64,000 nt of DNA. Source: Caulobacteraceae bacterium (GTDB lineage: Bacteria > Pseudomonadota > Alphaproteobacteria > Caulobacterales > Caulobacteraceae). Positions 1-15,279 of this stretch are shown one piece after another (the first letter of the stretch is position 1; each line of letters starts with the position of its first letter). A model generated the notes under the pieces. It was not told the DNA's origin, did not search any database, and saw only the letters and a program-made list of their open reading frames with translations. The stretch is from the NCBI GenBank assembly GCA_947475845.1, contig CANJMO010000001.1, positions 1-64,000 on the forward strand, written 5' to 3'. The position numbers and the translations under genes are program-made.

Positions 1-151
1 AGAGCGCTTACGACAAAAGATGTCATAGTCACGGAATTCGTATATTTGAATATTGTGTCTGGTCACATGGAATTTGAAAGAGATCTTAAAAGTACGGATT
101 AACACAATTTATATGATTTCCAGTGCAAACCTCAAAAGCGCCTAGACGGTA

Positions 152-604
152 TTAATTGATAGGCATCTTTCTATTTCGCCACTCCCAAGGCGGCTCAAAC
201 TGAGAAGCCCACATCCCCGCCCGGTTACCGTTCGCCTCGTCCTCGGCAGGGACGTAGCGGGTGCTGTAGCGGCGATACGCCAGCGCCCAGCCCTGTCGGA
301 CCATCTCTTCGTTGAGATTGACTGAGCCGGCCCAGCAGATCGCCACGAGCCGCCTGTAGCGGTCCTTGGCCTTGCCCTCGCAGCGGACTGCGCCGGCGCC
401 GATCATCGACCGCAGCGCCTCTGTAGCGGCCAGGCCGCAGCGCCAGTCACCGTCACGCTTGCACACCTGCTTGGTCTCCGGCGCATCGATGCCGTCGAGC
501 CTGATGTGTTGACCTGCAATCACAAGCGTGTCGCCATCAATCACCCGGGCCTGGCCATCGAAAGTGGACAGCGCTGCGAGGATCAAAAGGGCGGTGACGT
601 TCAT
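152..604 (-). CDS. Secreted thermonuclease-family protein (SNase fold)
   Basis: A 150-residue staphylococcal-nuclease-like protein, expected to hydrolyse nucleic acid phosphodiesters outside the cytoplasm with a metal ion. A short hydrophobic N-terminus (about residues 2-12) suggests export. Visible family motifs are VIDGDT near residue 20, DGIDAPE near residue 37 and DRYRR near residue 83, which carry the metal-binding Asp and the catalytic Arg/Glu positions known for the family. I chose the ATG at 604 because the open frame continuing upstream to 763 has no recognisable content, while the nuclease fold begins right after this Met. It lies in a lower-GC accessory stretch without an operon partner. 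Substrate and physiological role are unknown. Confidence 0.85.
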   Translation of the reverse strand: MNVTALLILAALSTFDGQARVIDGDTLVIAGQHIRLDGIDAPETKQVCKRDGDWRCGLAATEALRSMIGAGAVRCEGKAKDRYRRLVAICWAGSVNLNEEMVRQGWALAYRRYSTRYVPAEDEANGNRAGMWASQFEPPWEWRNRKMPIN

Positions 605-818
605 GAGCCAGCTAGCCAAGACGTTCGGTGCATCAGCCCTTAATGCCCACGCCTGTAGGCAGCCACAGCGGCGTCTGACGCATCGCCCAGGTAGCACATG
701 GGCGCATAGCCACCGCCACGGCTGGACTGCCAGCCGATCAGACCTTGAGCGGACCGGATACACCGGGCTCGCCGAGTTCGCCCGATGACTGTCGCCGGCG
801 CGGGCCAGCTAAAGAAAG

Positions 819-1076
819 CTAGCTTGATTTGCGCCGGAACCATCTCCAGAATTGGCCAATACTAAACCTTTTGATTCTTTTCTCGGACGACGTCACAGAA
901 AAATCTAGTAAAATTCCGTATTCAGACAGCCATCGGGGTTGTGCGTTAAACATATTTGGCTCGATCTGAAGCTTGTAGTGCGGAATTCCATTGATCAGGA
1001 ATCTAGAAATCACGGTAGCTTTTATTCCGGATCCGTACCTAGCAATAAACTGGTATCCGACTTTGTATGTTGTCAC
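819..1076 (-). CDS. Small hypothetical protein, 85 aa
   Basis: I do not recognise this family. The frame gives a protein with ordinary composition, many beta-prone segments (for example TTYKVGYQFIARYGSG) and a strongly basic, aromatic C-terminus (QFWRWFRRKSS). The start is GTG at 1076, preceded at a plausible distance by a purine-rich GAGAAG. Base composition is clearly more AT-rich than the genome core, as in its neighbours, which suggests recent acquisition. There is no signal peptide and no clear membrane segment. It could be a spurious frame, but its composition is more protein-like than the antisense shadows elsewhere in the window. Confidence 0.45.
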   Translation of the reverse strand: MTTYKVGYQFIARYGSGIKATVISRFLINGIPHYKLQIEPNMFNAQPRWLSEYGILLDFSVTSSEKRIKRFSIGQFWRWFRRKSS

Positions 1077-1225
1077 CGCAATCTTCTCGAAGTTATCGTA
1101 CTCTCCGACCGTATAAGCAGTGCATTATGAGAAACGCAATAACCTAAGATCCGTGATTTTCACCACATTGAGCGCTGTCACGCCATATTGGGCAATATCA
1201 GTCCATTTTTAATTCAGATTAAACA

Positions 1226-2704
1226 ATGAAAATACAAATTCGCCCACACGTTCTGGTTCTCTCTATTGCTTTGACATTTACATTAATGTCGCCCTCCCGC
1301 TCTAGGGCTGACACGCTTGAAGATCTCGCTAGGCGGCTTGATCGTCTGGAACAGGAAAACCGGGAACTACGGCAGGCATTGATTGCCGCGATCGGCCAAG
1401 CGAAGACTGAAGGCCTTCCGGCGCCGACGGTATCGGAGCCGGCGCCGAAGCCGGACGTAGCCACGGGCCCCAAGGAAAGCGTGGTGCGCTTCGACAGCAG
1501 CTACGCCTTTGCCGCCCTGGACCCGACCGTCGCGGGTAAGACCAAGCCCCTGATGCAGCTTGGGCTCGGGGACGGCTCACCGGCTGTTTATCTCAGCGGT
1601 GCGCTGACGGCGGTGGCGGATTTTCAGACTAGCAACAGGGACGATGACTTCGGCTACCTGATGCGTCAGCCCGGCGCCAATCACATCGGCAAGACCGCCT
1701 CAGAAGTGGCGCTTCACACCGCGCAACTTGCCGTCACGACGCGCCTGTCGCCTTGGGTCTCGGCCTACGGGGAACTGCTCTACGATCCGCAACAGAGTTT
1801 CGCCAGCGGGACTATCACGGCCTTGTCGCGCAACCAGATACAGCTCCGTCGCGGCTACGTCCTAATTGGCAACCCCAAGGCAACGCCCTTCTATTTCATG
1901 GCCGGCAAGTTGGACTCGCCATTTGGGCAGACCGACACGCTTAGCCCGTTCAGCCTTTCGACGGACGTACACACCTTTGCCGGCCTGTCTTACGGCGCGC
2001 TGGTGGGGTTCTCGAGGGGCGGCCTCAATCTGTCGTTGGAGGCCGCCCAAGGCGGCGCGGAGTTCCGCGGGCTGAACACGCCAGTTTCGGGCACCAATGT
2101 CCCCAGCCAGCTAAACAACTTCATTGTCGATGCGAATTATAGCCTGCCGCTAGGTCAGCCCAATGGCCGGCTACTGGTTGGAGCCTCCTACGAGGCTGGT
2201 AGTCCCTATTGCCAGACCTTCCCGATCCAACACTTCGGTCCCTGCGACAAAGCCAACCCAGCGTTCGCTGTCTACACGACACTGGGTTGGAACGCGGTCA
2301 CTTTGAAGGGTGAGTTCATGCAAACAGTCGGCGTCTGGCCGGGGACCCATAACCCCAATCCCCCGCTGAACGCATTCGCCGCCAGCAAAGTCACGAGTTA
2401 CGATTTAGCCGGCCGCTACCGGCTTCCGGTGGGCGGGAAAACCGTCGATCTGTCACTGAGCTTCAGCTCCTTTCTTTCGGGTCCGACTAACGCCCCCTGG
2501 CGAGGACAAGACCAGTTTGTTGGCGGCTTGGCCATCTACCTGGAACCCAATGTGAAGCTGTTTTCGGAGTTGGTGTTGGTCAACGGCTACGATCCCTTGA
2601 ACTTCCTCAGCGGCGGCATTCCGGGGCAAAATCCGGGCGCCTCCGACAGCGATCCGAGCAATCGCTCCAAGGTCATTATGTCCGGTGTGAACGTTGCATT
2701 CTAA
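1226..2704 (+). CDS. Outer-membrane beta-barrel protein, LbtU/DUF3573-like porin
   Basis: A 492-residue exported protein. Residues 1-28 are a signal peptide ending in SRSRA; residues 30-50 form a short coiled coil (LEDLARRLDRLEQENRELRQ), which is the periplasmic element typical of LbtU-type porins. The remainder is rich in alternating hydrophobic/polar strands and ends in VNVAF, the terminal aromatic expected by the BAM machinery. The family includes the Legionella siderophore porin LbtU, but the substrate here cannot be read from sequence. It has an ATG start with an AT-rich upstream region. It stands alone; the next gene (2717) starts 12 bases after its stop on the same strand and could be co-transcribed. 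Confidence 0.7.
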   Translation: MKIQIRPHVLVLSIALTFTLMSPSRSRADTLEDLARRLDRLEQENRELRQALIAAIGQAKTEGLPAPTVSEPAPKPDVATGPKESVVRFDSSYAFAALDPTVAGKTKPLMQLGLGDGSPAVYLSGALTAVADFQTSNRDDDFGYLMRQPGANHIGKTASEVALHTAQLAVTTRLSPWVSAYGELLYDPQQSFASGTITALSRNQIQLRRGYVLIGNPKATPFYFMAGKLDSPFGQTDTLSPFSLSTDVHTFAGLSYGALVGFSRGGLNLSLEAAQGGAEFRGLNTPVSGTNVPSQLNNFIVDANYSLPLGQPNGRLLVGASYEAGSPYCQTFPIQHFGPCDKANPAFAVYTTLGWNAVTLKGEFMQTVGVWPGTHNPNPPLNAFAASKVTSYDLAGRYRLPVGGKTVDLSLSFSSFLSGPTNAPWRGQDQFVGGLAIYLEPNVKLFSELVLVNGYDPLNFLSGGIPGQNPGASDSDPSNRSKVIMSGVNVAF

Positions 2705-2716
2705 TCAGCGAGGCGG

Positions 2717-3010
2717 ATGAGTAGCCGCCGACCAGCGCCCACCGCTCCAGTTTGGATATATTGGCTCACGCCCATGACCTACGGCTTCTAAACGTTCTTG
2801 CGGCTGGTCGTTTTCGGCTGCGCTGGATGGATTGCCTATCGCCGCTATCGAGAGGGCGAGACCAACTGGGCCCTGGGCTTCGGGCTCCTCACGGTGGCAT
2901 ATAATCCGCTGATCCCGGTGCTTCTCTCGCGCCCGATCTGGCTGCCAATCGATCTGTTCGCGATCTGGTTCTTCTGGAAGGCGCGGAAGCGGGAAGCCGC
3001 CAACAGGTAA
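2717..3010 (+). pseudogene. DUF6804-like small membrane protein with an in-frame stop
   Basis: From an ATG at 2717, preceded by GAGGCGG, the frame reads a short N-terminus ending PMTYGF, meets TAA at 2789-2791, then continues in the same frame with TFLRLVVFGCAGWIAYRRY and two further hydrophobic segments to a stop at 3010. DUF6804-type proteins normally have an uninterrupted YGYYTFLRLVV stretch at exactly this place, so the TAA most simply replaces a TAC or TAT tyrosine codon. The downstream part could still be made from the TTG at 2798 as a 70-residue, roughly three-segment membrane protein. Family assignment is from memory of the motif; function is unknown. Confidence 0.6.
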
Positions 3011-3021
3011 GGGGTGTCTCG

Positions 3022-3495
3022 CTAAAACTTCCGCGCTTCGGGCGAAAGCTTCGAGCATTCGGCTTCGATTTTGGTAGAAATTATTGCTCCACCATTCCAT
3101 TCTCCTAGATAACTAAGTCGACCACTAAGGCGATTTATATAGAATGTTTGTTCAAGTTTTCCGTCACTGAAGATAACAGTGTTTTTTATATTCCACGAAT
3201 TATAATCAGAATTATTCTGAATAGATTTTCCTTCCCCAACAAATGTAATTGCGCTAGTAACAACTACGTCACCGTCGGTAGATATAAAAATATTATTAAT
3301 CTGTTGTATAGATACTGAAAAATCAACCGACCTCATTTTCGGCGGGTCGGTTATGTAGGTTGGTTTTGATGTATATAGAACAACCTCAGTGCCCCGGCAC
3401 CTAAGCGTTAGATCGATAGTCTCAGCCTTGGCGTGGCCGTTCATCGACAGGGCCATGGTAAGCACCAGCCCGACGCCAAGAGATTTGTTATTCAT
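3022..3495 (-). CDS. Secreted hypothetical protein, 157 aa
   Basis: A protein of unknown family with a clear signal peptide (residues 1-24, ending NGHAKA) and a mature part of about 130 residues rich in beta-prone sequence. One cysteine lies near the mature N-terminus (LRCRG) and one near the C-terminus (EAECSK), which could pair in the periplasm. I chose the ATG at 3495 because its A/T overlaps the TGA of the upstream Sel1-type remnant (TGATG), an arrangement typical of translationally coupled genes; the open frame begins only 15 bases earlier. It is strikingly AT-rich compared with the core genome. Function cannot be assigned. Confidence 0.6.
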   Translation of the reverse strand: MNNKSLGVGLVLTMALSMNGHAKAETIDLTLRCRGTEVVLYTSKPTYITDPPKMRSVDFSVSIQQINNIFISTDGDVVVTSAITFVGEGKSIQNNSDYNSWNIKNTVIFSDGKLEQTFYINRLSGRLSYLGEWNGGAIISTKIEAECSKLSPEARKF

Positions 3496-3612
3496 CACTT
3501 CGGCTTCCACGCACTAGCCAGCCTCTGCGCCTCTGCGATCTGGGCGGGGGTCATCTTGGCGGCGGCGATGTCGCGGGCCTTCACAGCGTCCGCATCGCCT
3601 GACACAGCCGAG
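3495..3612 (-). pseudogene. 3' stump of a Sel1-like repeat gene
   Basis: The last about 38 codons of this frame read SAVSGDADAVKARDIAAAKM followed by TPAQIAEAQRLASAWKPK. This is the characteristic C-terminal tail of alphaproteobacterial Sel1-repeat proteins, which follows the last AHMW..NLAAA repeat. Upstream of the tail (above about 3612) the frame loses all family features and runs antiparallel into the TolC gene, so the repeats and start are missing. Its TGA overlaps the start of the secreted protein at 3495, showing that the two formed an operon before the truncation. It marks the left edge of the sulfur island. Confidence 0.6.
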
Positions 3613-3627
3613 CGTCTGGGGCAGACA

Positions 3628-4884
3628 TCACTCGGCATGGAGCAGGGCGTCCAGGCGATAGGCCGTGACCACGGCCGACCCCTTGGCGGCAATGAGCGCG
3701 CTTTGCGCCGCCAGGGTTTCCCGCTCGGCGTCGAGCAGATCCAGCATCGGCTTCTGCCCAACCCGAACCTCATGGCGGACACTGTCGAGCGCGCTGGCCG
3801 AGGCGCTGGACTGCTCACTGGCGGCCAGAACCACGGCGCGGGACGTCGTCACATCTTCCCACGCTCCGATCACCGCTTCGCGCACCTGAGCGCGCGCCGC
3901 GTCCACGCCGGCGCTGGCCGCGTGAACGCCTGCACGGGCCTCGTCGATGCGGCCGCTGACGGCTCCCCCCGCGAACAGGGTCCAGCGGCCCTGCACGCCT
4001 ATGGTGACGCCATCGGCCCGGTATCTGGGGAAGAACTGGTCACGAACGCTGCTGGCGGTCGCGGTAAGCGCCAGGCTGGGCAGGCGCTCGGCCTCCGCGA
4101 AGCGGGCGCCGGCCTCGGCGGCACGGGCCGCAGCCTTGGCCGCCAGAAGAGTAGCGTTGGACCGGTCGGCGACGGCCAGCGCATCGGCCAGCGCGACCGG
4201 CGTGACGGGCGGCGGGGGCAGACCGTCCAGCGCGTCGGGCTCGGCGCCGACCACTGAAATGAAGTGGGCCCGGCTGCGCGCCGCCTCGCCGTCGGCGCGG
4301 GCCAGGTCCGCACGGGCCTGCGCGAGACGGGCCTGCGCCTGGGCCTGATCCGTCCGCGTCGCGTCGCCCGCCTTGAACCGATCGTCCGCCTGGGCGGCGA
4401 TCTCCGTTAGCTGTCGCACCTGAGCGCCCCGCAGCGCCTGGATTTCGCGCGCGGTCAGAACCGCGACATAGGCGTCGGCGGCCTGGGCCGTCAGCAGCGC
4501 CTTGGCCCCGCCGACCTGAATGAGTGCGGCGTCGCGCCCCTCGCGGGCGCGGTCGATGGCGGCGGTTGTCGCGCCGCCGGTGAATAGGGGCTGACGCAGT
4601 TCCAGCGCGGCCGCCCGCGGAGATACGTCGCTGCGCCCGATGCCGAAGAAGCCGCCAAGATTGGTGTTCCCCCTACCCGCTTCGCCCGAAAGCGTGAGGC
4701 TGGGCAGACGCCCGGCGCGGGCGATGGAAAGGCGGGCGGCCGCCGCGTCCGCCTCCGCCTTCGACTGGGCTAGGCCAGGATTGCTGCGCTGGGCCAGGGC
4801 GATGGCCTCAGGCAGGGACAAGGCGGCGGCGCTGTGCGTCGCGGCAAGGCCGACCGTGATCCCGAAGGCGAGGACCGCGCGCAT
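3628..4884 (-). CDS. TolC-family outer-membrane efflux protein
   Basis: A 418-residue TolC/OprM-type channel. It has a signal peptide (MRAVLAFGITVGLAATHSAA), then two homologous halves of long Ala/Arg/Gln-rich helices: the first has EAIALAQRSNPGLAQSKAEAD, the second starts ALADALAVADRSNATLLAAK. Each half carries beta-strand segments that build the barrel (RQPLFTGGA, GRWTLFAGGA). The start at 4884 gives the signal peptide directly. It lies 5 bases downstream of the YgaP-like gene and probably in one operon with it and SQR. With the adaptor and pump encoded divergently it completes a tripartite RND system. It ends shortly after RLDALLHAE, which is normal for shorter members of the family. Confidence 0.88.
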   Translation of the reverse strand: MRAVLAFGITVGLAATHSAAALSLPEAIALAQRSNPGLAQSKAEADAAAARLSIARAGRLPSLTLSGEAGRGNTNLGGFFGIGRSDVSPRAAALELRQPLFTGGATTAAIDRAREGRDAALIQVGGAKALLTAQAADAYVAVLTAREIQALRGAQVRQLTEIAAQADDRFKAGDATRTDQAQAQARLAQARADLARADGEAARSRAHFISVVGAEPDALDGLPPPPVTPVALADALAVADRSNATLLAAKAAARAAEAGARFAEAERLPSLALTATASSVRDQFFPRYRADGVTIGVQGRWTLFAGGAVSGRIDEARAGVHAASAGVDAARAQVREAVIGAWEDVTTSRAVVLAASEQSSASASALDSVRHEVRVGQKPMLDLLDAERETLAAQSALIAAKGSAVVTAYRLDALLHAE

Positions 4885-4889
4885 CGGGA

Positions 4890-5093
4890 TCAACTGAAGG
4901 CGACGCCCGGTTTGGCCCCGAGCTTTTTGAACAGGATCGCGGCCGGACAGAAGCCGGTGAAGCCGGACTGGATCATATTGAGGCCGGCGAAGATGGTCAG
5001 GCCGACCCACCAGGGGTGCACGAAGTGGGCAAGGGCCAAGCCGAGCAGGACGACACTGCCGGCGAAGATCAGAACCATGCGGTCAACACTCAT
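4890..5093 (-). CDS. YgaP-like (DUF2892) inner-membrane protein
   Basis: A 67-residue protein with two hydrophobic helices (about residues 6-24 and 29-46) and the family motif QSGFTGFCPAAILFKKLG just after the second. This corresponds to the transmembrane part of YgaP, which in E. coli is fused to a rhodanese domain; here the rhodanese is a separate gene at 6651. Proteins of this family recur in sulfide-responsive operons (BigR, SqrR regulons). The ATG at 5093 is preceded by GGAGAT. It sits between SQR (80 bases upstream) and TolC (5 bases downstream), consistent with one operon. A role in binding or passing persulfide at the membrane is inference. Confidence 0.85.
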   Translation of the reverse strand: MSVDRMVLIFAGSVVLLGLALAHFVHPWWVGLTIFAGLNMIQSGFTGFCPAAILFKKLGAKPGVAFS

Positions 5094-5173
5094 GTTGCAT
5101 CTCCCATTCGGACCCGCACTTGCGCCGGAGCCTGTGCCTGGCGCGTCCAGGCGACGTCTTGAACAGAGGGGCT

Positions 5174-6454
5174 TCAGCCCTTGAGCTTGCGCAGCCCCAT
5201 GACGTCGAGGGCGAATTTCTCGTAGAAGGGCTCGCTCACGCCGCTCTTGACCTTGCCGATGAAGTATTTTTCGAAGGCGACCTTGGCGAGATGAACCCAT
5301 CCCCCGCTGGCCGACCAGTTGACGTTGCGCGGCGGAATCTGGGGCTGGGCGATGAAGGCCACGCCGCCGTCACCGAAATCCGCCAGGCAGAAGGCGTTCC
5401 AGGTCGCCTCATGGGTCGCCGGCTTGCCGTCGATGATCTGACCGAGGTTGTGGGCGATAGCCGTGACCATGCTCTCGATCATGAAGCCGGTCTTGGGTAC
5501 GCCGACGGGGACCGGGGTCTTGCCGGTCGGGGCGATGGCCACGCAGACCCCCAGTCCGAACACATTGGGAAAGGTCGGATTGCGCTGGTTCTTATCGACG
5601 ATGACGAAGCCGCGGGGATTGGTCAGCCCCTCGATGCCGCGCACGGCCGCCACCCCCCGGAAGGCGGGCAGCATCATGGAATAGGCGAACGGCAGGTCAT
5701 GGGTCGCCTTGACGGCGCCGTCCTCGGCGATCTCCTCGACATGCATCATGCCGGCCTCGACGGAGGCGACCTTGGCGTTGGTGATCCACTTGATGTGCCG
5801 GTCGCGCATCTCGCTCTCCAGCAGCCCCTTGGTGTCGCCGACGCCGTCCAGCCCGAGATGGCCGATGTAGGGCTCGGGGGTGACATAGGTCATAGGCACG
5901 CGGTCGCGAATCTTGCGGCGCTTGAGCTCGGTGTCGAGGATCATCGCGAACTCGTAGGCGGGGCCGAAGCAGGAGGCGCCCTGCACGGCGCCGATGACGA
6001 TCGGGCCGGGGTTTTCGACGAAGCGGTCGAAGGCCGCGGCGGCCGTCTCGGCGTGATCGACATGGCAGACCGACTGGGTAAAGCCGCCATGGGGCCCAAG
6101 CCCCGGAATCTCGTCGAAGGCCAGTTCCGGGCCGGTGGCGATGACCAGATAGTCGTACTCGACCATGGCCCCGTCATTGAGCTCGACGCGATTTTCCGCC
6201 GGGGAGAGGCGTTTGGCGCCGACTCCGGAAAATCCGATGCCGCGCTTCTTGAAGACGGGCGGGAGCTTGACCTCGATCGCGTCCCGCTTGCGCCAGTGAA
6301 CGGCGACCCAGGGGTTGGATGGGACGAAATGGAAGGTGTCGCCCTGCGACACCACGCTGACTTCGGCCCGATCGCCCACCGCCAGCTTGACCTCAAAGGC
6401 GGCGATGGTGCCGCCCAGACCGGCCCCCAGGATCACAATACGCGGCTTCGCCAT
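5174..6454 (-). CDS. sqr: Sulfide:quinone oxidoreductase
   Basis: A 426-residue FAD flavoprotein that oxidises sulfide to polysulfide or persulfide and passes electrons to membrane quinone. The N-terminal Rossmann motif is VILGAGLGG (residues 7-15), with a second nucleotide-fold stretch DYLVIATGP near 101-109. The three catalytic cysteines of true SQRs are all present: Cys130 (SVCHVDHA), Cys162 (ASCFGPAYEF) and Cys356 (FCLADFGD), which distinguishes it from type II NADH dehydrogenases. The TPVPVGVPKTGFMIESMV segment is also typical. It is transcribed divergently from rhodanese across an AT-rich regulatory region and leads the SQR, YgaP-like, TolC group. No signal peptide; peripheral cytoplasmic-face membrane binding is expected. 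Confidence 0.92.
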   Translation of the reverse strand: MAKPRIVILGAGLGGTIAAFEVKLAVGDRAEVSVVSQGDTFHFVPSNPWVAVHWRKRDAIEVKLPPVFKKRGIGFSGVGAKRLSPAENRVELNDGAMVEYDYLVIATGPELAFDEIPGLGPHGGFTQSVCHVDHAETAAAAFDRFVENPGPIVIGAVQGASCFGPAYEFAMILDTELKRRKIRDRVPMTYVTPEPYIGHLGLDGVGDTKGLLESEMRDRHIKWITNAKVASVEAGMMHVEEIAEDGAVKATHDLPFAYSMMLPAFRGVAAVRGIEGLTNPRGFVIVDKNQRNPTFPNVFGLGVCVAIAPTGKTPVPVGVPKTGFMIESMVTAIAHNLGQIIDGKPATHEATWNAFCLADFGDGGVAFIAQPQIPPRNVNWSASGGWVHLAKVAFEKYFIGKVKSGVSEPFYEKFALDVMGLRKLKG

Positions 6455-6560
6455 GATCTTTATCCTGCTCCAGCAGCCCTACGGCCGCACTCACTGTCCC
6501 CCGGTTGCGCCCCGCGGACTTTGATCCACATCACATCGCGCCGCCGATTTCGGCCTTAGG

Positions 6561-6624
6561 GTTCGGGATCGAACGATTGATTATATATTTGTATTTCGGT
6601 ATATGCGCAATAACGTATTTATAT
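6561..6624. promoter_or_regulatory. Shared SQR/rhodanese promoter region with candidate ArsR operator
   Basis: The 196 bases between the divergent SQR and rhodanese starts contain an AT-rich block in otherwise GC-rich DNA. It has a short dyad GTTCG-GGAT-CGAAC (6561-6574), a run TTATATATTTGTATTTCGGT (6581-6600), and a second GTATTT copy at 6615-6620, 24 bases from the first. BigR/SqrR-type repressors are known to bind AT-rich imperfect palindromes in such places. That the island's own ArsR binds here is inference. Confidence 0.4.
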
Positions 6625-6650
6625 CGTCGCTTTCGATGCAAGGGCCCCCG

Positions 6651-6989
6651 ATGTTCGCCAAAATCAAAACCACTGACCTGACGCCGCAGCAGGTGAAGGC
6701 CGCCCTCGACGCCCATAAAATCCTGCTGGTCGACGTGCGCGAACCTGCCGAGTTCGCCGCCGAGCGCATCCATGGTGCGCTCAACTTCCCCCTGTCCAGC
6801 TTCGATCCCGGCGCCCTGCCGCCCGTCGGCGACCGGATGATCGTCTTTCAGTGCGGCTCGGGAAAGCGATCGGCGACGGCAGTCGAACGTTCTCGCGCCG
6901 CCGGCCACCACATCGACGCCCATCTGGCCGGCGGGATCATGGCCTGGAAGGCCATGGGACTGCCGACCGTCGCCTTCGACCGCGCCTGA
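6651..6989 (+). CDS. Single-domain rhodanese (sulfurtransferase)
   Basis: A 112-residue rhodanese-fold protein without signal peptide. Key features are LLVDVREPAEFAAERI (residues 26-41), the active-site loop CGSGKRS with the persulfide-forming Cys68, and the closing LAGGIMAWKAMGLP. Such proteins move sulfane sulfur from persulfide donors to thiol acceptors, so it would handle the product of the adjacent SQR. I prefer the ATG at 6651 because the domain begins there; in-frame ATGs at 6603 and 6636 would add a short unstructured leader. It heads the plus-strand group rhodanese, adaptor, pump, ArsR, and is 31 bases from the adaptor gene. Confidence 0.9.
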   Translation: MFAKIKTTDLTPQQVKAALDAHKILLVDVREPAEFAAERIHGALNFPLSSFDPGALPPVGDRMIVFQCGSGKRSATAVERSRAAGHHIDAHLAGGIMAWKAMGLPTVAFDRA

Positions 6990-7020
6990 CCGGTTCAATA
7001 TCCATTCGCGGAGGTCAGCC

Positions 7021-8052
7021 ATGGCCGCATCACCCCATCTGTTCTGCATCCTGAGCGCGGCCCTGGCGTTGGGCGCCTGCGGCGAGGCCAAGCCGCCGGC
7101 GTCTGCCACGGCCTCAGCCCCGGCGGCCGGACGTCTGACCGTGCGGACACAGACCATCGCCGACATGAAGGCCGTCCCCGCGACGCTGACGACGCGGGAT
7201 ATGGCGGACGCCAGGGCGCGCCTATCGGGCGTCCTCGTGGCGCTTGCGGTGAAGGCGGGGGACACCGTTCGGCAAGGCCAGGTGATCGCGCGAGTCAGGG
7301 ACGATCGCCTCAACCTGCAGACCAGCGCCTTCGACGCACAGGTCTCGGCCGCCGCGGCGGAGGCGACCCGCGCCCAGGCCGACCTTGCCCGAACGCGCGA
7401 TCTCTACTCTCACGGCGTCTACGCCCAAGCCCGTCTCGATCAGGTGGAGGCCCAGGCCAAGTCCGCCCAGGCCGCGCTGGCCGCCGCCCGCGCCCAGCGC
7501 GACGCCAGCGCCGAACTGAGCGCTCAGGGCGCGATCCTGGCCCCCGCCGCCGGACGGGTGCTGACGGCTGACGTGCCGCTCGGCTCCGTGGTCATGCCGG
7601 GTCAGTCCATCGCCAGGATCACCGCCGGTCCGATGGTGGTGCGGATTGAACTTCCCGAAGGGCAGGCCCGCGCCCTCGAGCTGGGAGATCGGGTACAACT
7701 GAGCCCCGAAGATCTGCGTGGGTCGGCCGCACAGGGAACCATCAGCCAGATCTATCCCTCGGTCGCCGGCGGTCAGGTGACCGCGGATTTAACAGCCCCC
7801 AATCTGCCCACGGAACTGGTCGGCCAGAGGGTGCGCGTCAGCGTCCGAATCGGCGACCGTCAGGCGCTGGTCGTGCCCCGCGCCTATGTCTCAACCCGGT
7901 TCGGCGTGGACTACGTCAGCCTGGTCCACGCCGACGGCACAATGTCTGATATGCCGGTCCAGACGACGGCGGGGCCCACCCCCGACACAGTCGAAGTGCT
8001 GGCGGGCCTTCGGTCCGGCGACGTCCTTAGCCCGGCGAGGACGGCCCGGTGA
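7021..8052 (+). CDS. RND efflux periplasmic adaptor lipoprotein
   Basis: A 343-residue membrane-fusion protein. The N-terminus has a signal peptide with lipobox ALGAC, so the mature protein should be lipid-anchored. The order is typical: first half of the barrel-sandwich (SGVLVALAVKAGDTVRQGQV), a helical hairpin rich in Ala/Gln (about residues 100-165), second half of the lipoyl fold (APAAGRVLTADVPLGSVV), beta-barrel and membrane-proximal domain. The ATG at 7021 follows GGAGG. The stop overlaps the GTG start of the pump (GTGA at 8049-8052), showing translational coupling. It works with the pump at 8049 and TolC at 3628; the exported compound is unknown, but the setting points to reactive sulfur species. 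Confidence 0.9.
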   Translation: MAASPHLFCILSAALALGACGEAKPPASATASAPAAGRLTVRTQTIADMKAVPATLTTRDMADARARLSGVLVALAVKAGDTVRQGQVIARVRDDRLNLQTSAFDAQVSAAAAEATRAQADLARTRDLYSHGVYAQARLDQVEAQAKSAQAALAAARAQRDASAELSAQGAILAPAAGRVLTADVPLGSVVMPGQSIARITAGPMVVRIELPEGQARALELGDRVQLSPEDLRGSAAQGTISQIYPSVAGGQVTADLTAPNLPTELVGQRVRVSVRIGDRQALVVPRAYVSTRFGVDYVSLVHADGTMSDMPVQTTAGPTPDTVEVLAGLRSGDVLSPARTAR

Positions 8053-11000
8053 ACCTCGGTCTTTCCGGACGGCTGACCAAGGCCACCATCAAGTCGCCGC
8101 TGACGCCGCTGTTCCTGCTGGCGGCCATCGCCGTCGGCCTGCTGGCCCTGATGTCGATCCCCCGCGAGGAGGAGCCGCAGATCAGTGTGCCGATGGTGGA
8201 CATCATGGTCGCCGCCCCCGGACTGCGCGCGCCCGACGCCGTCGAGCTGGTCGGCAAGCCGCTCGAGACCATCGTCAAGAGCGTCGCCGGGGTCGAGCAC
8301 GTCTATACTTTCGCCGACGACAATCAGGTGATGGTGACCGCTCGCTTCAAGGTCGGCACCGATCCCGATGCGGCGGCTGTCCGCATCCACGAGAAGGTGC
8401 GGGCCAACTACGACCGGATACCTGCCGGCATTGCCGAACCGCTGATCCAGACGCGCAGCATCAATGATGTGCCCAGCCTGGTGCTCACTCTGTCGCCCAA
8501 GCCGGGCGCGGCCGGCCAATGGACGGATCAGGCCCTGTTCGAGCTGGCCGGCAAGCTGCGCGCCGAGGTCGCGAAGGTCGACGACGTCGGACTGACCTTC
8601 ATCGTCGGCGGCCGATCCCAGGAAATCCGCGTCGAGCCCGATCCGGCCAGGCTCGCGCTGCACGGGGTCTCATTGGGCGTGCTGACGGACGCCATCCGCC
8701 AGGCCAACCGCGCCTTCCCCGCCGGCCAGGTTCGCAACGGGGGACAGGCGGTCGATGTCACCGCCGGGCACACCCTGGTCAGCGCCACTCAGATCGGCCT
8801 GCTCACCATACCCTCGGCCACCGGGCAGGGCGTCTATGTGCGAGACGTGGCCCAGGTCATCGAGGGTCCACGCGAGGATCAGGCCCGCGCCTGGCGCTAC
8901 GCCCGCGTCGGCCAGGGCTGGAGCGAGGCCCCGGCGGTCAGCCTAGCGGTCGCCAAGCGCAAGGGCGCCAACGCGGTCGTGGTTTCCCATGCCGTCCTGG
9001 CCCGCGTCGAGGCGCTCAAAGGGTCGTTGCTGCCCGACAGTCTGGACGTGGCGGTGACCCGGGACTACGGGGCCACGGCCAACGAGAAGGCCAATGAGCT
9101 GCTCATGCATCTAGGGCTGGCGACGGTCTCGATCGTCGTGCTGATCGGCTTCGCCATCGGCTGGGGCGAGGCGGGCGTCACCGCCGTCGTCATCCCCACC
9201 ACCATCCTGCTGACCCTCTTCGCCTCCAATGTGATGGGCTACACCATCAATCGGGTCAGCCTGTTCGCCCTGATCTTCTCCATCGGCATCCTGGTCGATG
9301 ACGCCATCGTCATGATCGAAAACATCGCCCGGCACTGGGCGATGAACGACGGCCGCAGCCGGACCGACGCCGCGATCGACGCCGTGGCCGAGGTGGGCAA
9401 TCCGACGGTCGTGGCCACCCTCACGGTGGTTTCGGCCCTGCTGCCGATGCTGTTCGTTTCGGGGCTGATGGGTCCCTATATGGCGCCGATCCCGGTCAAT
9501 GCCTCGGCGGCGATGGTCTTCTCCTTCTTCGTCGCGGTGGTGATCGCGCCGTGGCTGATGGTGCGCTTCGCCCGCAAGACCCTGAGCGGCGGCGGGGGCC
9601 ATCATGGGGAGGGCCGGCTCGGCGAGCTCTATCGCCGGGTCGCCGGACAGGTCATCGCCACGCGCCGCAGCGCCTGGACCTTCCTGATCGGCGTCGGCGT
9701 GGCCACGCTGGTCGCCTGCGCCATGTTCGCCACCAAGACCGTGACGGTGAAGCTGCTGCCGTTCGACAACAAGTCCGAGCTGCAGGTGGTGCTGGACATG
9801 CCCGAGGGCGCGGCCCTCGAATCCACCAGCCGCACCCTGACCGAGATCGCCGCCATCGCCCGCTCCGTGCCGGAGGTGGAGGCGGTGGACGCCTACGCGG
9901 GGACGGCCTCGCCGTTCAACTTCAACGGGCTGGTACGCCACTACTACCTGCGCAACCGGCCCGAGATGGGCGATCTTTCGGTGGCGCTGGCCGAGAAGGG
10001 ACGCCGCCATCGCAGCAGCCACGCCATCGCCCTGGACCTGCGTCGAAAGCTGACCCGCGTGATGCTTCCCGACGGCGCGGTGATCAAGGTGGTCGAAGCG
10101 CCGCCGGGACCGCCGGTCATGGCGACCCTGCTGGCCGAAATCTACGGTCCCGACGCCCAGACCCGGCGCGCCGTGGCCGAACGGGTCAAGGCGAGCTTCC
10201 ACGCCGTGCCCTACATCGTAGACATCGACGACAGCTATGGGCGGCCGCGGCCGGGGTTGCGGCTGGTTCCCGACCGCGAGCGGCTGGAAGCGCTCAGAGT
10301 GAGCGAGCACGAGGTGTATGATTCCGTCGCCGCCGCGCTCGGCGGCCAGGTGGTGGGCTACGCCCATCGTGGACCGGGTCGCGATCCGCTGGAGATTTCC
10401 GTACGCCTTCCACAATCGGCCCGCACCTGGGGCGAGAGCCTGGCGTCGATGCCGGTCGCCGTCTCGCAGGGGGTCGCGGGTGGACGGCTGGTGGAGCTGG
10501 GCGAGCTGGTGACCGCATCCAACGAGCCCGGCTCGACCCACATCTTCCGCCGCGACGGCCGCGACGTGGACATGATCATGGGCGAGTTGGCCGGCGCGTA
10601 CGAGGCGCCGATCTACGGCATGCTGGCGGTCGACAAGGCCATCAAGCAGGGGAACTGGACGGATGCGCCGAGGCCCGACATCCGCATGAACGGCCAGCCG
10701 ACCGACGAGAGCCGGCCCACCGTGCTGTGGGACGGCGAGTGGGAAATCACCTGGGTCACCTTCCGCGACATGGGCGCGGCGTTCGGCGTGGCGATCCTGG
10801 GCATCTATGTGCTGGTGGTGGCCCAGTTCAAAAGCTTCCGCCTGCCGCTGGTGATCCTGACGCCGATCCCGCTGACCCTCGTGGGCATCGTCCTGGGCCA
10901 TATCGTTTTCCGGGCGCCGTTCACCGCGACCTCGATGATCGGCTTCATCGCCCTGGCCGGGATCATCGTGCGCAACTCGATCCTGCTGGTGGACTTCATC

Positions 11001-11258
11001 CGCCATAGCCAGAACACCGACCGGTCCCTGCGTGAGGTCCTGCTGGAGGCCGGAGCGATCCGCTTCAAGCCGATCGTGCTGACGGCGGCGGCGGCGATGA
11101 TCGGCGCGGCCGTGATCCTGACCGACCCGATCTTCCAGGGTCTTGCGATCTCGCTGCTATTCGGTCTGGCGTCCTCGACCTTGCTGACGGTGCTGGTGAT
11201 CCCCGCCATCTATGTGGTTCTGCGTGACGACGGTGTCGCCCTGGGAACGCCGCCTTGA
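8049..11258 (+). CDS. RND-family efflux pump, inner-membrane permease
   Basis: A 1069-residue proton-driven resistance-nodulation-division transporter of normal length. TM1 is followed by SIPREEEPQISVPMVDI; the TM4 proton-relay pair Asp417-Asp418 is visible in SIGILVDDAIVMIENIARHW; a second transmembrane block follows from about residue 905 with FRLPLVILTPIPLTLVGIVL and AGIIVRNSILLVDFIRH. The two large periplasmic loops lie between TM1-2 and TM7-8. It starts with GTG overlapping the adaptor stop. The subclass resembles broad HAE-type pumps with a REEEPQI signature rather than heavy-metal (CusA) pumps, since I see no CusA-type methionine triad. The substrate is not deducible from sequence. Confidence 0.9.
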   Translation: MNLGLSGRLTKATIKSPLTPLFLLAAIAVGLLALMSIPREEEPQISVPMVDIMVAAPGLRAPDAVELVGKPLETIVKSVAGVEHVYTFADDNQVMVTARFKVGTDPDAAAVRIHEKVRANYDRIPAGIAEPLIQTRSINDVPSLVLTLSPKPGAAGQWTDQALFELAGKLRAEVAKVDDVGLTFIVGGRSQEIRVEPDPARLALHGVSLGVLTDAIRQANRAFPAGQVRNGGQAVDVTAGHTLVSATQIGLLTIPSATGQGVYVRDVAQVIEGPREDQARAWRYARVGQGWSEAPAVSLAVAKRKGANAVVVSHAVLARVEALKGSLLPDSLDVAVTRDYGATANEKANELLMHLGLATVSIVVLIGFAIGWGEAGVTAVVIPTTILLTLFASNVMGYTINRVSLFALIFSIGILVDDAIVMIENIARHWAMNDGRSRTDAAIDAVAEVGNPTVVATLTVVSALLPMLFVSGLMGPYMAPIPVNASAAMVFSFFVAVVIAPWLMVRFARKTLSGGGGHHGEGRLGELYRRVAGQVIATRRSAWTFLIGVGVATLVACAMFATKTVTVKLLPFDNKSELQVVLDMPEGAALESTSRTLTEIAAIARSVPEVEAVDAYAGTASPFNFNGLVRHYYLRNRPEMGDLSVALAEKGRRHRSSHAIALDLRRKLTRVMLPDGAVIKVVEAPPGPPVMATLLAEIYGPDAQTRRAVAERVKASFHAVPYIVDIDDSYGRPRPGLRLVPDRERLEALRVSEHEVYDSVAAALGGQVVGYAHRGPGRDPLEISVRLPQSARTWGESLASMPVAVSQGVAGGRLVELGELVTASNEPGSTHIFRRDGRDVDMIMGELAGAYEAPIYGMLAVDKAIKQGNWTDAPRPDIRMNGQPTDESRPTVLWDGEWEITWVTFRDMGAAFGVAILGIYVLVVAQFKSFRLPLVILTPIPLTLVGIVLGHIVFRAPFTATSMIGFIALAGIIVRNSILLVDFIRHSQNTDRSLREVLLEAGAIRFKPIVLTAAAAMIGAAVILTDPIFQGLAISLLFGLASSTLLTVLVIPAIYVVLRDDGVALGTPP

Positions 11259-11262
11259 TCTT

Positions 11263-11281
11263 ATGTGCGAATATTCCACAT
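11263..11281. promoter_or_regulatory. Inverted repeat at the ArsR start, candidate autoregulatory operator
   Basis: The bases read ATGTG-CGAATATTC-CACAT, with outer arms at 11263-11267 and 11277-11281 and an inner GAATATTC palindrome offset by half a base step. It lies immediately upstream of the preferred ArsR start (11289). GAATATTC-type cores resemble BigR-class operators. The operator role is inferred from position and symmetry only. Confidence 0.4.
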
Positions 11282-11288
11282 TGAGCAG

Positions 11289-11627
11289 ATGACCATGCCC
11301 CCCCCCTTACCCCTCGAGCTTTCCGAACTGGAGCAGAGCGCACAGTCGGCCTCCCGCCTGCTCAAACTCATGGCCAGCGAACCGCGCCTGCTGTTGCTAT
11401 GCCGTCTGTTCGAGGGCGAAGCCTCGGTGGGGACCCTGGCGGATCACGTTAGGATGGCCCGTTCGACCACCTCGCAGCACCTGGCCAAGATGCGCGCCGA
11501 AGGCCTAGTGGCCACGCGCCGGGACGCCCAGACGATCTACTACCGGCTCGACGACCCCGCGGCCGTGAAGATTCTCGACACGTTGTGCGAAATCTATCGG
11601 ACGCCAGCCGCCAACAGAAGGAGCTGA
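11289..11627 (+). CDS. ArsR-family repressor, two-cysteine SqrR/BigR-like persulfide sensor
   Basis: A 112-residue winged-helix repressor: recognition helix region MARSTTSQHLAKMRAEGLV, wing RRDAQTIYYRL. Two cysteines are present at the positions that matter in SqrR and BigR: Cys38 in LLLLCRLFEGEAS and Cys100 in LDTLCEIYR. In those proteins the pair forms a tetrasulfide or disulfide on exposure to persulfides and releases DNA. There is no metal-binding ELCVCDL motif of classical ArsR. The ATG at 11289 (or 11295) is preferred over the GTG at 11265, which would lie inside the putative operator. The last residues TPAANRRS diverge from family ends, and the island junction lies here. Confidence 0.85.
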   Translation: MTMPPPLPLELSELEQSAQSASRLLKLMASEPRLLLLCRLFEGEASVGTLADHVRMARSTTSQHLAKMRAEGLVATRRDAQTIYYRLDDPAAVKILDTLCEIYRTPAANRRS

Positions 11628-12184
11628 CGGCCCGCCTACAGGGCGTGCAGTTCGTCCTGGCTCATACCGAGTCGTTGAAGACGATGGCGGTCGAACAACA
11701 GAAGGCCATCGACCTGGCCAGGGCGGCGTTTGAAGCGGCCGACGCTGGCCGTCAGAACCAGATGGACATCTTGGCCAGCCAAGCGGATCTGGCGCAGTAC
11801 GCCTTCCAGCGCCGCGACATCGAGCGCGAGCTTGCCAAGCTCTCGCAGCAAGAAGAGCTCGACAGGCAAGCCTTCATAACGAGAGGCCACGGCTACACCG
11901 TCGAGCAGGAGGACATCGCCCAAAAGCGCATCGTCGCCCTGCGAACGATCTACGCCAACGACGACAAGGCCGCCCAGCGCCATGAACTCGAGGTCTCTTA
12001 CGCTGACCTTTCGAGCGCCGTGGAATCGATGGCGCAGGCTATCGGCCAGCACGATTGGCAGGCGGCCACTAAGAAGTTCTTTGAGGCCCTGACGACCGCC
12101 GCGCATGCATTCTCGCTAGCGGGCTCAAGGGCCGATCAAGCAAGTGCCGTGGGCGGCCTCATGGGCTCCGTGGGTACGGTCTGA
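11600..12184 (+). pseudogene. 5'-truncated coiled-coil protein gene
   Basis: A frame that begins inside the end of the ArsR gene with no believable start and reads a continuous helical, Gln/Ala/Glu-rich sequence (SRQQKELTARLQGVQFVLAH; LAKLSQQEELDRQAFITRGH), ending in a Gly-rich tail LMGSVGTV. The even heptad-like character suggests the middle and end of a longer coiled-coil protein whose N-terminal part was lost at the island junction around 11600. An internal Met (MAVEQQKA, near 11684) could permit a shorter product. I do not recognise the family. Confidence 0.45.
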
Positions 12185-12589
12185 CGGTCTATCAGCTGGT
12201 GGCTTGGCGGCCGCAGGTTGCGGTATTGGCGGCGGGGGCGCGTTGATGGGTTTTGCAGTTCGGGTGATCTTGGAAAACGCTTGAGCTCCCCTGAGATAGC
12301 GTTGAGCAGCGCGTGCTACCGATCATCTCAACGGGCTCGGTCACCACCGGCCTTGATCTTGTCAGCTGCCGTGGACGGGGTCCAAAACTGGGGCAGAAAC
12401 GTCCAAGTTTACATGCAGCTAATCGACTTCAACGGGCTGCTCCGAGTACGCAGCCGTTACTAATCCCGCTGCACGCCGAGGCCGCGCCACCGGCGTCCGC
12501 TCCAAGCACCGGCCCGGCAGCGATCGTCGTGGCAGTGCTCCAGTAGGCCGGAGCCATGATCCAGGCTTTTCGTGACACCGATTATTCCT
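12185..12589. other. Apparently gene-free stretch
   Basis: About 400 bases between the coiled-coil remnant and the next stump. Short open frames exist on both strands but none has family features, a good start or coherent composition. I see no terminal inverted repeats or transposase sequence. It is best read as decayed intergenic DNA. Confidence 0.5.
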
Positions 12590-12868
12590 TCAAGAGCCGG
12601 GGAACTGCAGAACGATCCGCTGCTGGCCGTGGGAGGGCGTCGTGAATTTGGCGCTGCGGACCTTGTCCGGATCCTCCATCAACTGCGCATAGACCTGATA
12701 CGCGCCTTTGGCGGGCTTCATCAGCACCCATGGTCCATCGCACATCACGGTCAGCAGCGGATGGCCCTTGGCGTCTACCAGGGCGACCATGGTGTCGGTG
12801 ATGTAGTGGCTCTGCGCGTCCGAAAACTCGACCCGGATCGGATAGACCGAACGCCTTCGCGCCGGACT
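12590..12868 (-). pseudogene. 3' part of a carboxypeptidase-regulatory-like (DUF4198-type) secreted protein gene
   Basis: Reading the minus strand from about 12868 without a start, the frame gives VYPIRVEFSDAQSHYITDTM, then VALVDAKGHPLL, CDGPWVLMKPAKGAYQVYAQL and a C-terminus RIVLQFPGS. This beta-rich pattern (a substituted DGP-x-LMKLPAGKY core and a terminal VLQFP) is typical of a small periplasmic family with a carboxypeptidase-regulatory-like fold in Caulobacterales. Signal peptide and N-terminal strands are missing: upstream the frame meets the cytochrome c stump of the opposite strand. It could be a short gene starting at 12790, but the coherent sequence before that ATG argues for truncation. 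Confidence 0.5.
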
Positions 12869-12879
12869 TTCGGACCCTT

Positions 12880-13053
12880 CGTCAAACCCGTTCCTTGCTG
12901 GATATCGAGCGGACGCTCGCCCCGGGACACGTGGTCGGCCACCCGCCCATGCCTGTGTTCGCCGGCATGCCGGACGACGTGAGCGCCTTGATGGAATTTA
13001 TCAAATCCGTTCAGACGTCTCCCGCCAGGTGGCCAGTCAGACGACGGCGGTGA
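12880..13053 (+). pseudogene. 3' stump of a cytochrome c gene
   Basis: The plus-strand frame reads LLDIERTLAPGHVVGHPPMP, then VFAGMPDDVSALMEFIKSVQ, then a short basic tail to TGA at 13051-13053. The HPPMP segment with its axial methionine, followed by the acidic helix ending in EFIKSV, is the standard C-terminus of class I cytochromes c. No CxxCH haem motif exists upstream: the frame enters the divergent remnant at 12868 at once. So this is a gene whose first half is gone, broken at the same junction as its neighbour. Confidence 0.5.
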
Positions 13054-13079
13054 TGGGTGACCACCGCGACTGAAGCTTG

Positions 13080-14252
13080 CTACCGGAGGAGCTGAGCAGC
13101 CGCGTAGGCAAGGGTCTGCTCTTCGTTGGCCGCAATTATCCAGACGGCAGTCGAGGCTTCGGAAAGGCTGATCTTGCCGTGATCGCGATCGTTTGCTTCA
13201 AAGTCTAGCCCGACCCCCAGCCACGCCAGGCGCTCGCAGGTCCGCCGGCGGATCTCGCCGGCGTGTTCACCGATGCCGGCAGAGAACACCAGTGCGTCTA
13301 GACCGCCGAGGGTCGCCGCGAGGGCGCCAATCTCGCGCACCAGTCGGAACACGAATTGATCAACGGCGGCTTCCGCTTCCCGACTGTGCGCGGCCAGCAG
13401 CGTACGCATGTCGCCGGAAACACCCGACAGGGCCAGCAACCCGGATTGTCGGTAGAGGACATCCTCCACTTGATCGGGGGTCAGGCCCTGGCGCAGCATG
13501 TAGAGCACCACGCCAGGGTCCAGCGCTCCACAGCGCGTGCTCATGACCAGGCCGTCCAGCGGCGAAAATCCCATGCTCGTGTCGATGGGGGCGCCGTCGT
13601 TCAAACCGCACAGGCTCGCGCCTGAGCCCAGGTGAGCGAAGACGACTTTGCCTCGTGCCGCCTTAGGATCCAGTTCGCGCAGTCGGCCCAGGAGGAAATC
13701 ATAGGATAGGCCATGGAAGCCGTAGCGCCGCACGCCAAGGTTCGCCCAAGCATTTGGCAGGGGAACGCGTCGCGCCGGTGCAGGCAGGTTGTGGAAAAAG
13801 GCGGTATCGAAACAGGCCACCTGGGGCGTTTCAGGCCCAAGCGCCGCAAAGGCTTTGAGCATCGCGAGATTGTACGGCTGATGCAGCGGAGCTAGGGGGC
13901 AGAGGGCTTCCAGGTCGGCGATCACCCCTTCGGTAGCCACCACCGGGGCGACATAATCGAGCCCGCCATGCGCCACCCGGTGGGCGACCGCCGCCAAACC
14001 GCGGACGCCAGCTCGTTCGGCTACCCAGGCCAAGATGCTCTGTGCTAGCGCCGCCTGCCCAGACTGCACAACATCGGCCCAATTGTGATCGTCGATCTGC
14101 ACGCCGGCGTCCGTAAAAGCGCGCATCCGAGAACCACCGCCGAGTTCGTCGACTAGCCCATAAAACCGGCGCTGGGGTTCATCGGTGGCGGCAAAGAGGG
14201 CGAACTTGACCGTGGACGAGCCGACATTCAGCGCCAGGATATGGTCACCCAT
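13080..14252 (-). CDS. ackA: Acetate kinase
   Basis: A 390-residue enzyme of the acetate/butyrate kinase family, making acetyl phosphate and ADP from acetate and ATP, or ATP from acetyl phosphate. Motifs: LNVGSSTVKFALF at residues 8-20 (first phosphate loop), YGFHGLSYDFL, AHLGSGASLCGL (adenosine-binding), DTSMGFSPLDGLVMSTRCG and FSAGIGEHAGEIR near the C-terminus. Length is close to the usual 395-400. The ATG at 14252 overlaps the end of the phosphotransacetylase gene by 8 bases, so the two are coupled. Together they interconvert acetyl-CoA and acetate. In this lineage the pair is often linked to low-oxygen fermentation. Confidence 0.92.
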   Translation of the reverse strand: MGDHILALNVGSSTVKFALFAATDEPQRRFYGLVDELGGGSRMRAFTDAGVQIDDHNWADVVQSGQAALAQSILAWVAERAGVRGLAAVAHRVAHGGLDYVAPVVATEGVIADLEALCPLAPLHQPYNLAMLKAFAALGPETPQVACFDTAFFHNLPAPARRVPLPNAWANLGVRRYGFHGLSYDFLLGRLRELDPKAARGKVVFAHLGSGASLCGLNDGAPIDTSMGFSPLDGLVMSTRCGALDPGVVLYMLRQGLTPDQVEDVLYRQSGLLALSGVSGDMRTLLAAHSREAEAAVDQFVFRLVREIGALAATLGGLDALVFSAGIGEHAGEIRRRTCERLAWLGVGLDFEANDRDHGKISLSEASTAVWIIAANEEQTLAYAAAQLLR

Positions 14253-15231
14253 GCGCGGATGTCGTCGGCCGACGGGCGATAATCCCCAGCTTTTCAGCCA
14301 TGAGGACCGCGAGGGCGCATGAGACGACGTGGACTCGCTCACTGTCGGCCCGGCTGGTCAGAATGATGGGAACCCGGGCGCCCAAGACGAGGCCGGCCGC
14401 CTCCGCGCCGCCGAGGAAGGTCAACTGCTTGGCCAGGATGTTCCCCGCGATCAAGTCCGGAGCCACCAGGACGTCCGCATCACCTGCCACGGACGACACA
14501 ATCCCCTTTTCCGCCGCGGCGGCCGGATTGACGGCGTTGTCGAAGGCCAAGGGGCCATCAATCAGTCCACCGGTGATCTGATGGCGATCCGCCATCTTGC
14601 ACAGGGCGGCCGCATGGATGGTCGAGGGCAGCCGAGAGGTGACCGTTTCCACTGCGGACAAGATGGCCACCTTCGGTTGATCGATACCGAGCACATGGGC
14701 CAGATCAATCGCGTTCTGCACGATGTCGCGTTTGTCTTCGAGCCCGGGTGCAATGTTGATGGCGCCGTCCGTGATCAGCAGGGGCTTCGGATAGGCGGGG
14801 GTTTGCATCAGGTAGACATGGCTGACCCGGCGTTGTGTCCGAAGACCCGTTTTCGCCGCCAGCACGGCGTGCATCAGCTCGTCGGTATGGATCGAGCCTT
14901 TCATCAGCAGCTGGACTTGACCGTCACGCGCCATTTCGATCGATCGCTCGGCAGAGGCGTGGCTGTGCGGCGTCGAGATCAGCAGAAAGCGGCTGATATC
15001 GATCCCGGCAGCCGCGGCGGCCGCACGGATTTTCAGTTCGGGGCCCACCAGCACCGGCTCGATCAAACCAAGGTCAGCGGCCTCGGCAGCGGACTCGATA
15101 GCCACCGCATCGCACGGATGCACCACTGCCGTCTTTACAGGACCCAGACCGCAGCAACGGGTCACCAGACGGCCGCCCAGCGGCCATGACTTCAGCCGGG
15201 GGGACATTGCGAGTTCGGCAGGAATGAGCAT
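14245..15231 (-). CDS. Phosphate acetyl/butyryl transferase
   Basis: A 328-residue enzyme of the PTA/PTB family, transferring an acyl group between CoA and phosphate. Family features are VHPCDAVAIESAAEAADLGL near the start, LLMKGSIHTDELMHAVL, RRVSHVYLMQTPAYPKPLLI with TDGAINIAP, GPLAFDNAVN and LVAPDLIAGNILAKQL. This short form is the one often called the enoyl-CoA-hydratase-type PTA, so its acyl substrate could be acetyl or butyryl. The start is uncertain: Met at 15231 or at 15207 (MSPRLKSW) both fit; the frame is open further upstream but without family sequence. It is the first gene of the pair with ackA. Confidence 0.87.
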   Translation of the reverse strand: MLIPAELAMSPRLKSWPLGGRLVTRCCGLGPVKTAVVHPCDAVAIESAAEAADLGLIEPVLVGPELKIRAAAAAAGIDISRFLLISTPHSHASAERSIEMARDGQVQLLMKGSIHTDELMHAVLAAKTGLRTQRRVSHVYLMQTPAYPKPLLITDGAINIAPGLEDKRDIVQNAIDLAHVLGIDQPKVAILSAVETVTSRLPSTIHAAALCKMADRHQITGGLIDGPLAFDNAVNPAAAAEKGIVSSVAGDADVLVAPDLIAGNILAKQLTFLGGAEAAGLVLGARVPIILTSRADSERVHVVSCALAVLMAEKLGIIARRPTTSAHG

Positions 15232-15265
15232 GGGCACCAGATAGAGGCGCCGAGGCCTGCGCGCC

Positions 15266-15279
15266 TTGATCGTGCTCAA
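15266..15279. promoter_or_regulatory. FNR/FixK-like box between pta and uspA
   Basis: The sequence TTGAT-CGTG-CTCAA differs by one base from the FNR/FixK consensus TTGAT-N4-ATCAA. It lies 35 bases upstream of the phosphotransacetylase start and about 105 bases upstream of the divergent uspA start, a reasonable place for oxygen-dependent activation. Binding is inferred from the match alone. Confidence 0.45.

Follow-up and report, generated by a model that had tools for sequence, protein, structure and literature searches.

We analyzed a 64,000-nucleotide stretch of a Caulobacteraceae genome (contig CANJMO010000001.1, positions 1 to 64,000; the whole stretch is called the window below) with regard to a seven-gene cluster at 3628–11627. 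Two divergent units leave one promoter region: the leftward unit encodes a sulfide:quinone oxidoreductase (SQR), a small YgaP-type membrane protein and a TolC-family channel, and the rightward unit encodes a rhodanese, an RND adaptor, an RND permease and an ArsR-family repressor. A preliminary description of this DNA had reported the seven genes and the divergent promoter, and all were present where it placed them. We found that the arrangement occurs in dozens of independent genomes, far beyond chance. Taken as a whole, the reading we favor is that of a sulfide/persulfide stress unit with RND export of a sulfane-sulfur product, for and against which the chances appear evenly balanced.

Recurrence and sulfur genes of the cluster

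Searching GTDB contigs with the pump yielded at least 579 confirmed relatives, from which the best 80 were kept, picked by similarity to the window pump; 71 of these had enough flank (2.5 kb or more ahead of the adaptor). SQR was found in 62, the membrane protein in 70 and ArsR in 66 of the 71 loci. To offset the similarity-based choice, two even draws were added, comprising 399 Pseudomonadota genomes and 240 alphaproteobacterial genomes. A pump at least 59% identical was present in 34 of the 399, every one of them Alphaproteobacteria, and the fetched stretches around the 33 close pumps other than that of the window contained SQR (23/33), the membrane protein (25/33) and ArsR (24/33). Also, half of the ten other SQR relatives in the 240 alphaproteobacterial genomes (5/10) adjoined the same pump. 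The preliminary description would have been contradicted by a lack of co-occurrence between pump and SQR in other genomes; both the close relatives and the even draw showed such co-occurrence. Half of the SQR-bearing loci (32 of 64) had a TolC gene close to SQR. In a tree, the permease relatives formed their own clade, over 59% identical across Alphaproteobacteria. Among distant pumps (37–46% identity, other proteobacterial families), a sister clade of nine had no sulfur neighbor at all, and others occurred with the membrane protein and ArsR, some also with rhodanese and SQR. In L183 and L184 (family f172, same phylum), the membrane protein and several rhodanese-like frames came after a homologous pump, and in L183 SQR was nearby as well. 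A copper P-type ATPase-like gene lies near the SQR-RND cluster of L022 (3219–5570). The general SQR-ArsR-RND association is already published and is not new: it is known in outline because sulfane-sulfur-responsive ArsRs have been described beside sqr, pdo, rhd and RND efflux pumps, probably transporting sulfur compounds (PMC12423496).

The SQR (5174–6454, minus strand) is the only one of its kind in a search of the genome. It matches the Acidithiobacillus-type enzyme of PDB 3sz0 over residues 5–425 (E 1.8e-146), and Cys130, Cys162 and Cys356, whose positions had been given correctly before, are in register with the three catalytic cysteines; a further cysteine is Cys304. soxB was searched for and not found in the genome, so the organism is apparently not a full Sox sulfur oxidizer. 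The single-domain rhodanese (6651–6989, plus strand; PF00581, 56.9 bits) has the active-site loop CGSGKRS (Cys68), which is conserved among homologues. The membrane protein (4890–5093, minus strand; 67 residues; PF11127, 44 bits, cut-off 25.3) carries Cys49 in a GFCP motif kept in 116 of 119 homologues. YgaP itself is a rhodanese fused to a transmembrane domain, and here PF00581 and PF11127 belong to two separate genes. The rhodanese loop and the GFCP cysteine would fit a sulfane-sulfur relay at the membrane.

Cysteine placement in the ArsR regulator

The start of the ArsR gene (11289–11627, plus strand; HTH_5, HTH_metalloreg) was placed at the likely ATG at 11289, because an upstream GTG falls within the conserved promoter; counted from this ATG, the earlier numbering of Cys38 and Cys100 is correct. 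SqrR, BigR and HlyU fall in one group with an alpha2–alpha5 cysteine pair (PMC10509353), and the two window cysteines had been said to match those of SqrR and BigR. This is true of Cys38, which aligns with the alpha2 cysteine of SqrR, HlyU and BigR, but not of Cys100, which is four residues, or one helical turn, ahead of their second cysteine; the latter sits where alpha5 ends, some 66 residues after the first. The spacing is 62 in the window ArsR and 66 in HlyU and BigR; YgaV, with an insertion of one residue, has 67. Similarly, the NCBIfam BigR equivalog NF040642 scored 74.6 bits against a cut-off of 155. We call the window ArsR a variant because it has a SqrR-like frame but lacks one defining feature of the group.

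This variant is not confined to the window. Among 115 distinct ArsRs in the fetched loci, the spacing was 62 in 58 and 66 in 47, with few between; a further cysteine at 65 was present in 18 of the 58. In a tree, SqrR, HlyU, BigR and YgaV fell outside the 62-spaced ArsRs, which grouped as a single clade with 98/88 support and in 98% of bootstrap trees. As a control, 29 other best ArsR matches were drawn evenly from the class: spacing 62 was seen only in the one beside the pump, and 22 had 66 or 67. Three members (L003, L022 and L110) lack Cys100 and have a cysteine in alpha1, 21 residues before the Cys38 position. The C-terminus of four Sphingomonad regulators of the clade (L034, L036, L038 and L053) carries CxxCxxxC instead of a single cysteine. 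In the AlphaFold model of the window ArsR (predicted local distance difference test, pLDDT, 90.5), Cys100 lies within alpha5 (helix 90–103), whereas Cys98 of the canonical 66-type ArsR of L004, also modeled with AlphaFold, is just beyond helix 84–97. HlyU and SqrR were among the best Foldseek matches to the window model, with TM-scores up to about 0.9, and the alpha3 CxC metal motif is missing. With this frame and these neighbors, persulfide is likely to be the signal of the window ArsR. The 62-spaced clade offers a natural experiment on cysteine placement versus persulfide specificity.

Regulatory sites and reduction of the window copy

A promoter matrix was trained on 27 other loci, with the window excluded (training median, 54.6 bits). 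Its best match across the 64 kb, both strands included, was at 6577–6610 (plus strand; 46.9 bits), the promoter of the rhodanese and pump genes, in which an ATAT...ATAT operator-like repeat is embedded (TTGATT-N25-GCAA). The next independent site, at 11255–11288 (plus strand; TTGATC...GAATATTC...CACATT), is ahead of arsR and scored 5.3 bits, the best score elsewhere in the window being 1.5. The TTGAT(C/A) promoter ahead of arsR is kept in L003, L005 and L008. An automatic inverted-repeat search found no operator, but cross-locus comparison did find one; a guessed operator pattern did not outperform chance and was rejected. The matrix sites at 6577 and 11255 support, as putative operators, one regulator acting on both. 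In the nearest relatives (L003–L006 and L008), a canonical 66-spaced ArsR, whose two cysteines both align with those of HlyU, BigR and YgaV, is encoded at the divergent promoter, and a 62-clade ArsR behind the pump. Common regulation of SQR, rhodanese, pump and arsR, as proposed before, is thus very probable, judging from the conservation of the cluster, the shared promoter-operator of the divergent region with its weaker copy before arsR, and the canonical ArsR at that promoter in the nearest relatives.

A second regulatory input was suggested by the sequence TTGATCCACATCAC (6521–6534, plus strand), 67 nt ahead of the sqr start codon, which differs from the FixK/FNR box TTGAT-N4-ATCAA by one mismatch. 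Boxes of this type (at most one mismatch, 25–95 nt before the sqr start) recur across Caulobacterales, being present in 14 of 19 Caulobacterales loci, 1 of 26 Sphingomonadales loci and none of 8 Hyphomicrobiales loci, and the FixK/FNR half-site topped all 1024 half-sites tested in the Caulobacterales loci. A FixK/FNR-family protein that has the recognition helix ETVSR is encoded in the genome and may bind this box. The window cluster is probably also under FixK/FNR-type control, and the Caulobacterales box ahead of sqr points to control by low oxygen. Further right in the window (13080–15700), acetate kinase- and phosphotransacetylase-like genes stand beside a short universal-stress-like frame; such gene sets often go with low oxygen.

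The cluster had been described as self-contained. The unit and the cluster are indeed conserved, but the term is overstated for the window copy, which lacks trxC except for a relic, lacks a second ArsR and is probably also FixK/FNR-controlled. In 19 of the 64 SQR-bearing loci, a trxC (thioredoxin 2) gene lay no more than 3 kb from SQR, mostly between it and the membrane protein. In the window, pairwise alignment to the trxC of relatives revealed a relic of its 3' end at 5094–5160 (minus strand; extent approximate): the trxC genes of L004 and L022 are 96% identical to it over 25 bp, covering the last codons only, and L003 is 78% identical over 89 bp, where the alignment extends into the next gene (pairwise E 4e-11). 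The window copy is a reduced one: of trxC just the last codons are left, and the usual 66-spaced ArsR gene is missing. A second trxC-like gene is present elsewhere in the genome. No relic of a 66-spaced arsR was seen in the window, where the alignment halts at the promoter and picks up again with the rhodanese ATG, and the window ArsR is the only comparable ArsR match in the genome; the kept promoter favors loss of the 66-spaced gene over its never having been present. Several other features were observed in the left part of the window. A frame running on past the TolC end (3495–3627) finishes with a sequence that resembles the end of an unrelated gene (AVKARDIAAAKMTPAQIAEAQRLASAWKPK), and tolC may therefore have a rearrangement junction at its 3' end. 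G+C is lower (0.56–0.60) left of the cluster (1–4000), and third-position G+C in porin-like and acetate kinase/phosphotransacetylase-like genes (1226–15700) is about 0.72–0.75, compared with about 0.9 further right. The left part may be acquired or degraded DNA.

Pump cargo and comparison with known systems

The pump has the features of an HAE-type tripartite system. Permease (8049–11258, plus strand; PF00873, 467 bits), adaptor (7021–8052, plus strand; TIGR01730, 145.7 bits, cut-off 94.9; lipobox-like LALGAC near the N-terminus) and TolC (3628–4884, minus strand, the last gene of the leftward operon; TIGR01844, 250.9 bits, cut-off 225; PF02321) are encoded together, all score over the family cut-offs, and the permease has the VDDAI Asp pair in transmembrane helix 4 (TM4). 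Its nearest PDB entry, MexK, is only distantly related (203 bits over about 1000 residues). The substrates of HAE-type RND pumps are hydrophobic or periplasmic; since S8 and long polysulfides partition into membranes, export of such a product via TolC is plausible. The pump clade has no conserved cysteine, and the single Cys557 of the window permease is not conserved, so there is no sign of covalent transfer as a step in pumping.

Type I SQRs produce polysulfide, or persulfide with thiols. By analogy with such characterized families, the SQR of the cluster would oxidize sulfide into the quinone pool, yielding polysulfide or a thiol persulfide, and the YgaP-type membrane protein and the rhodanese, together a YgaP split in two, may pass sulfane sulfur along at the membrane. 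The RND pump, its adaptor and TolC would then take the sulfane-sulfur product from the periplasm or inner membrane and expel it, be it polysulfide, S8 or a low-molecular-weight thiol persulfide. The SqrR-like ArsR is predicted to bind both operator-like sites, repressing the divergent promoter and its own gene, and to be released when sulfane sulfur bridges Cys38 and Cys100, as persulfide sensing by related ArsRs suggests. In Rhodobacter capsulatus, SQR and a rhodanese shape SqrR signaling (PMC9995734). In Caulobacterales, a FixK/FNR-type activator may also drive sqr at low oxygen, in line with known FixK boxes. Whether the pump substrate is a sulfur compound we judge an even call, with sulfane sulfur as our best guess. 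A more specific proposal, that the cluster encodes a dedicated trans-envelope sulfane-sulfur RND exporter, widespread in Alphaproteobacteria, under a new persulfide-sensor subclass with the second cysteine one turn earlier and wired through FixK to oxygen limitation in Caulobacterales, is tentative.

Several observations weigh against export of sulfane sulfur under an SqrR-like sensor. Pumps of this RND type usually export a broad range of substrates. Linkage is not universal, in that some close pumps (several in family f24, and others) are adjoined by the adaptor alone; the site ahead of arsR scored far below the divergent site; and the second cysteine is off the proven position, so that bridging of Cys38 and Cys100 is assumed. 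In the literature, we found no published report of sulfane-sulfur transport by RND pumps, and no paper testing the pump of this SQR-ArsR-RND cluster; in the Sulfurovum S0 paper, TolC/HlyD were linked to polysaccharide export, not to sulfur. Some of these points are shared by a different explanation, in which the cluster still forms a regulon responding to sulfide, with a pump that is merely co-induced by reactive sulfur and acts as a general exporter for hydrophobic toxicants or products of damage, such as quinone or thiol adducts. The closest solved relatives are multidrug pumps (MexK and other HAE-type pumps), some close pump relatives have no sulfur neighbors, and persulfide sensors of the SqrR/BigR/HlyU group also control non-sulfur genes (PMC10509353). 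However, the linkage to SQR, the YgaP-type protein and rhodanese is tight and old and is found in several orders, and an operator-like promoter stands immediately ahead of the rhodanese and pump genes. A general exporter is a real possibility, although we lean away from it.

The signal or the cargo may also differ in kind. If the cysteine shift marks a change of signal, the ArsR might sense peroxide, a metal or metalloid, or general thiol oxidation; the move of the second cysteine by one helical turn is common to the whole clade, the three members without it carry an alpha1 cysteine, and Sphingomonad members have CxxC(xxxC) tails. We consider such a change unlikely, as the alpha3 CxC metal motif is absent, fold and sequence are nearest to SqrR and HlyU, the neighbors are sulfide genes, and the operator is common to the canonical 66-spaced regulators. 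Heavy-metal export is a highly improbable function of the pump. A CusA/CzcA-type exporter for thiophilic metals accompanying sulfide would agree with the match to the HME family model TIGR00914 and with the copper-ATPase-like gene near the L022 cluster, but the TIGR00914 score (250.3 bits) is far under the cut-off of 701, the VDDAI pair in TM4 is typical of HAE-type pumps, and scores under the family cut-offs together with the lack of conserved cysteines led us to reject this reading. For the stress unit with sulfane-sulfur export, the significance lies in how bacteria dispose of excess polysulfide or persulfide across the envelope, for which the cluster is a defined, widespread and genetically testable candidate; among the RND pumps encountered here, none has a proven sulfur substrate.

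Compared with known systems, the cluster combines familiar parts in a different arrangement. It shares ArsR, rhodanese and the YgaP transmembrane domain with E. coli YgaVP, but here rhodanese and transmembrane domain are split across the two sides of the promoter, and SQR and an RND pump are added. The full-length match and the three catalytic cysteines are shared with Acidithiobacillus-type SQR, whereas the window SQR is embedded in a pump and ArsR cluster. Similarly, the permease has the domain layout and the TM4 VDDAI of HAE-type pumps (MexK, TriC and MdtB), but is distantly similar to them and belongs to an alphaproteobacterial clade tied to SQR. With the persulfide-sensing ArsRs SqrR, BigR, HlyU, YgaV, SoxR and sHdrR (cluster 4 of a sequence similarity network, SSN), the window regulator shares the fold, the alpha2 cysteine in register and the sulfide-gene neighbors; it differs in its second cysteine, four residues earlier inside alpha5, and in its separate clade. 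Finally, the neighborhoods of PMC12423496 have the same kind of gene set, and sulfur-compound transport was already proposed there. Both conserved cysteines were required in that survey, however, and surveys demanding a 66-spaced pair could miss the 62-spaced ArsR clade to which the window regulator belongs.

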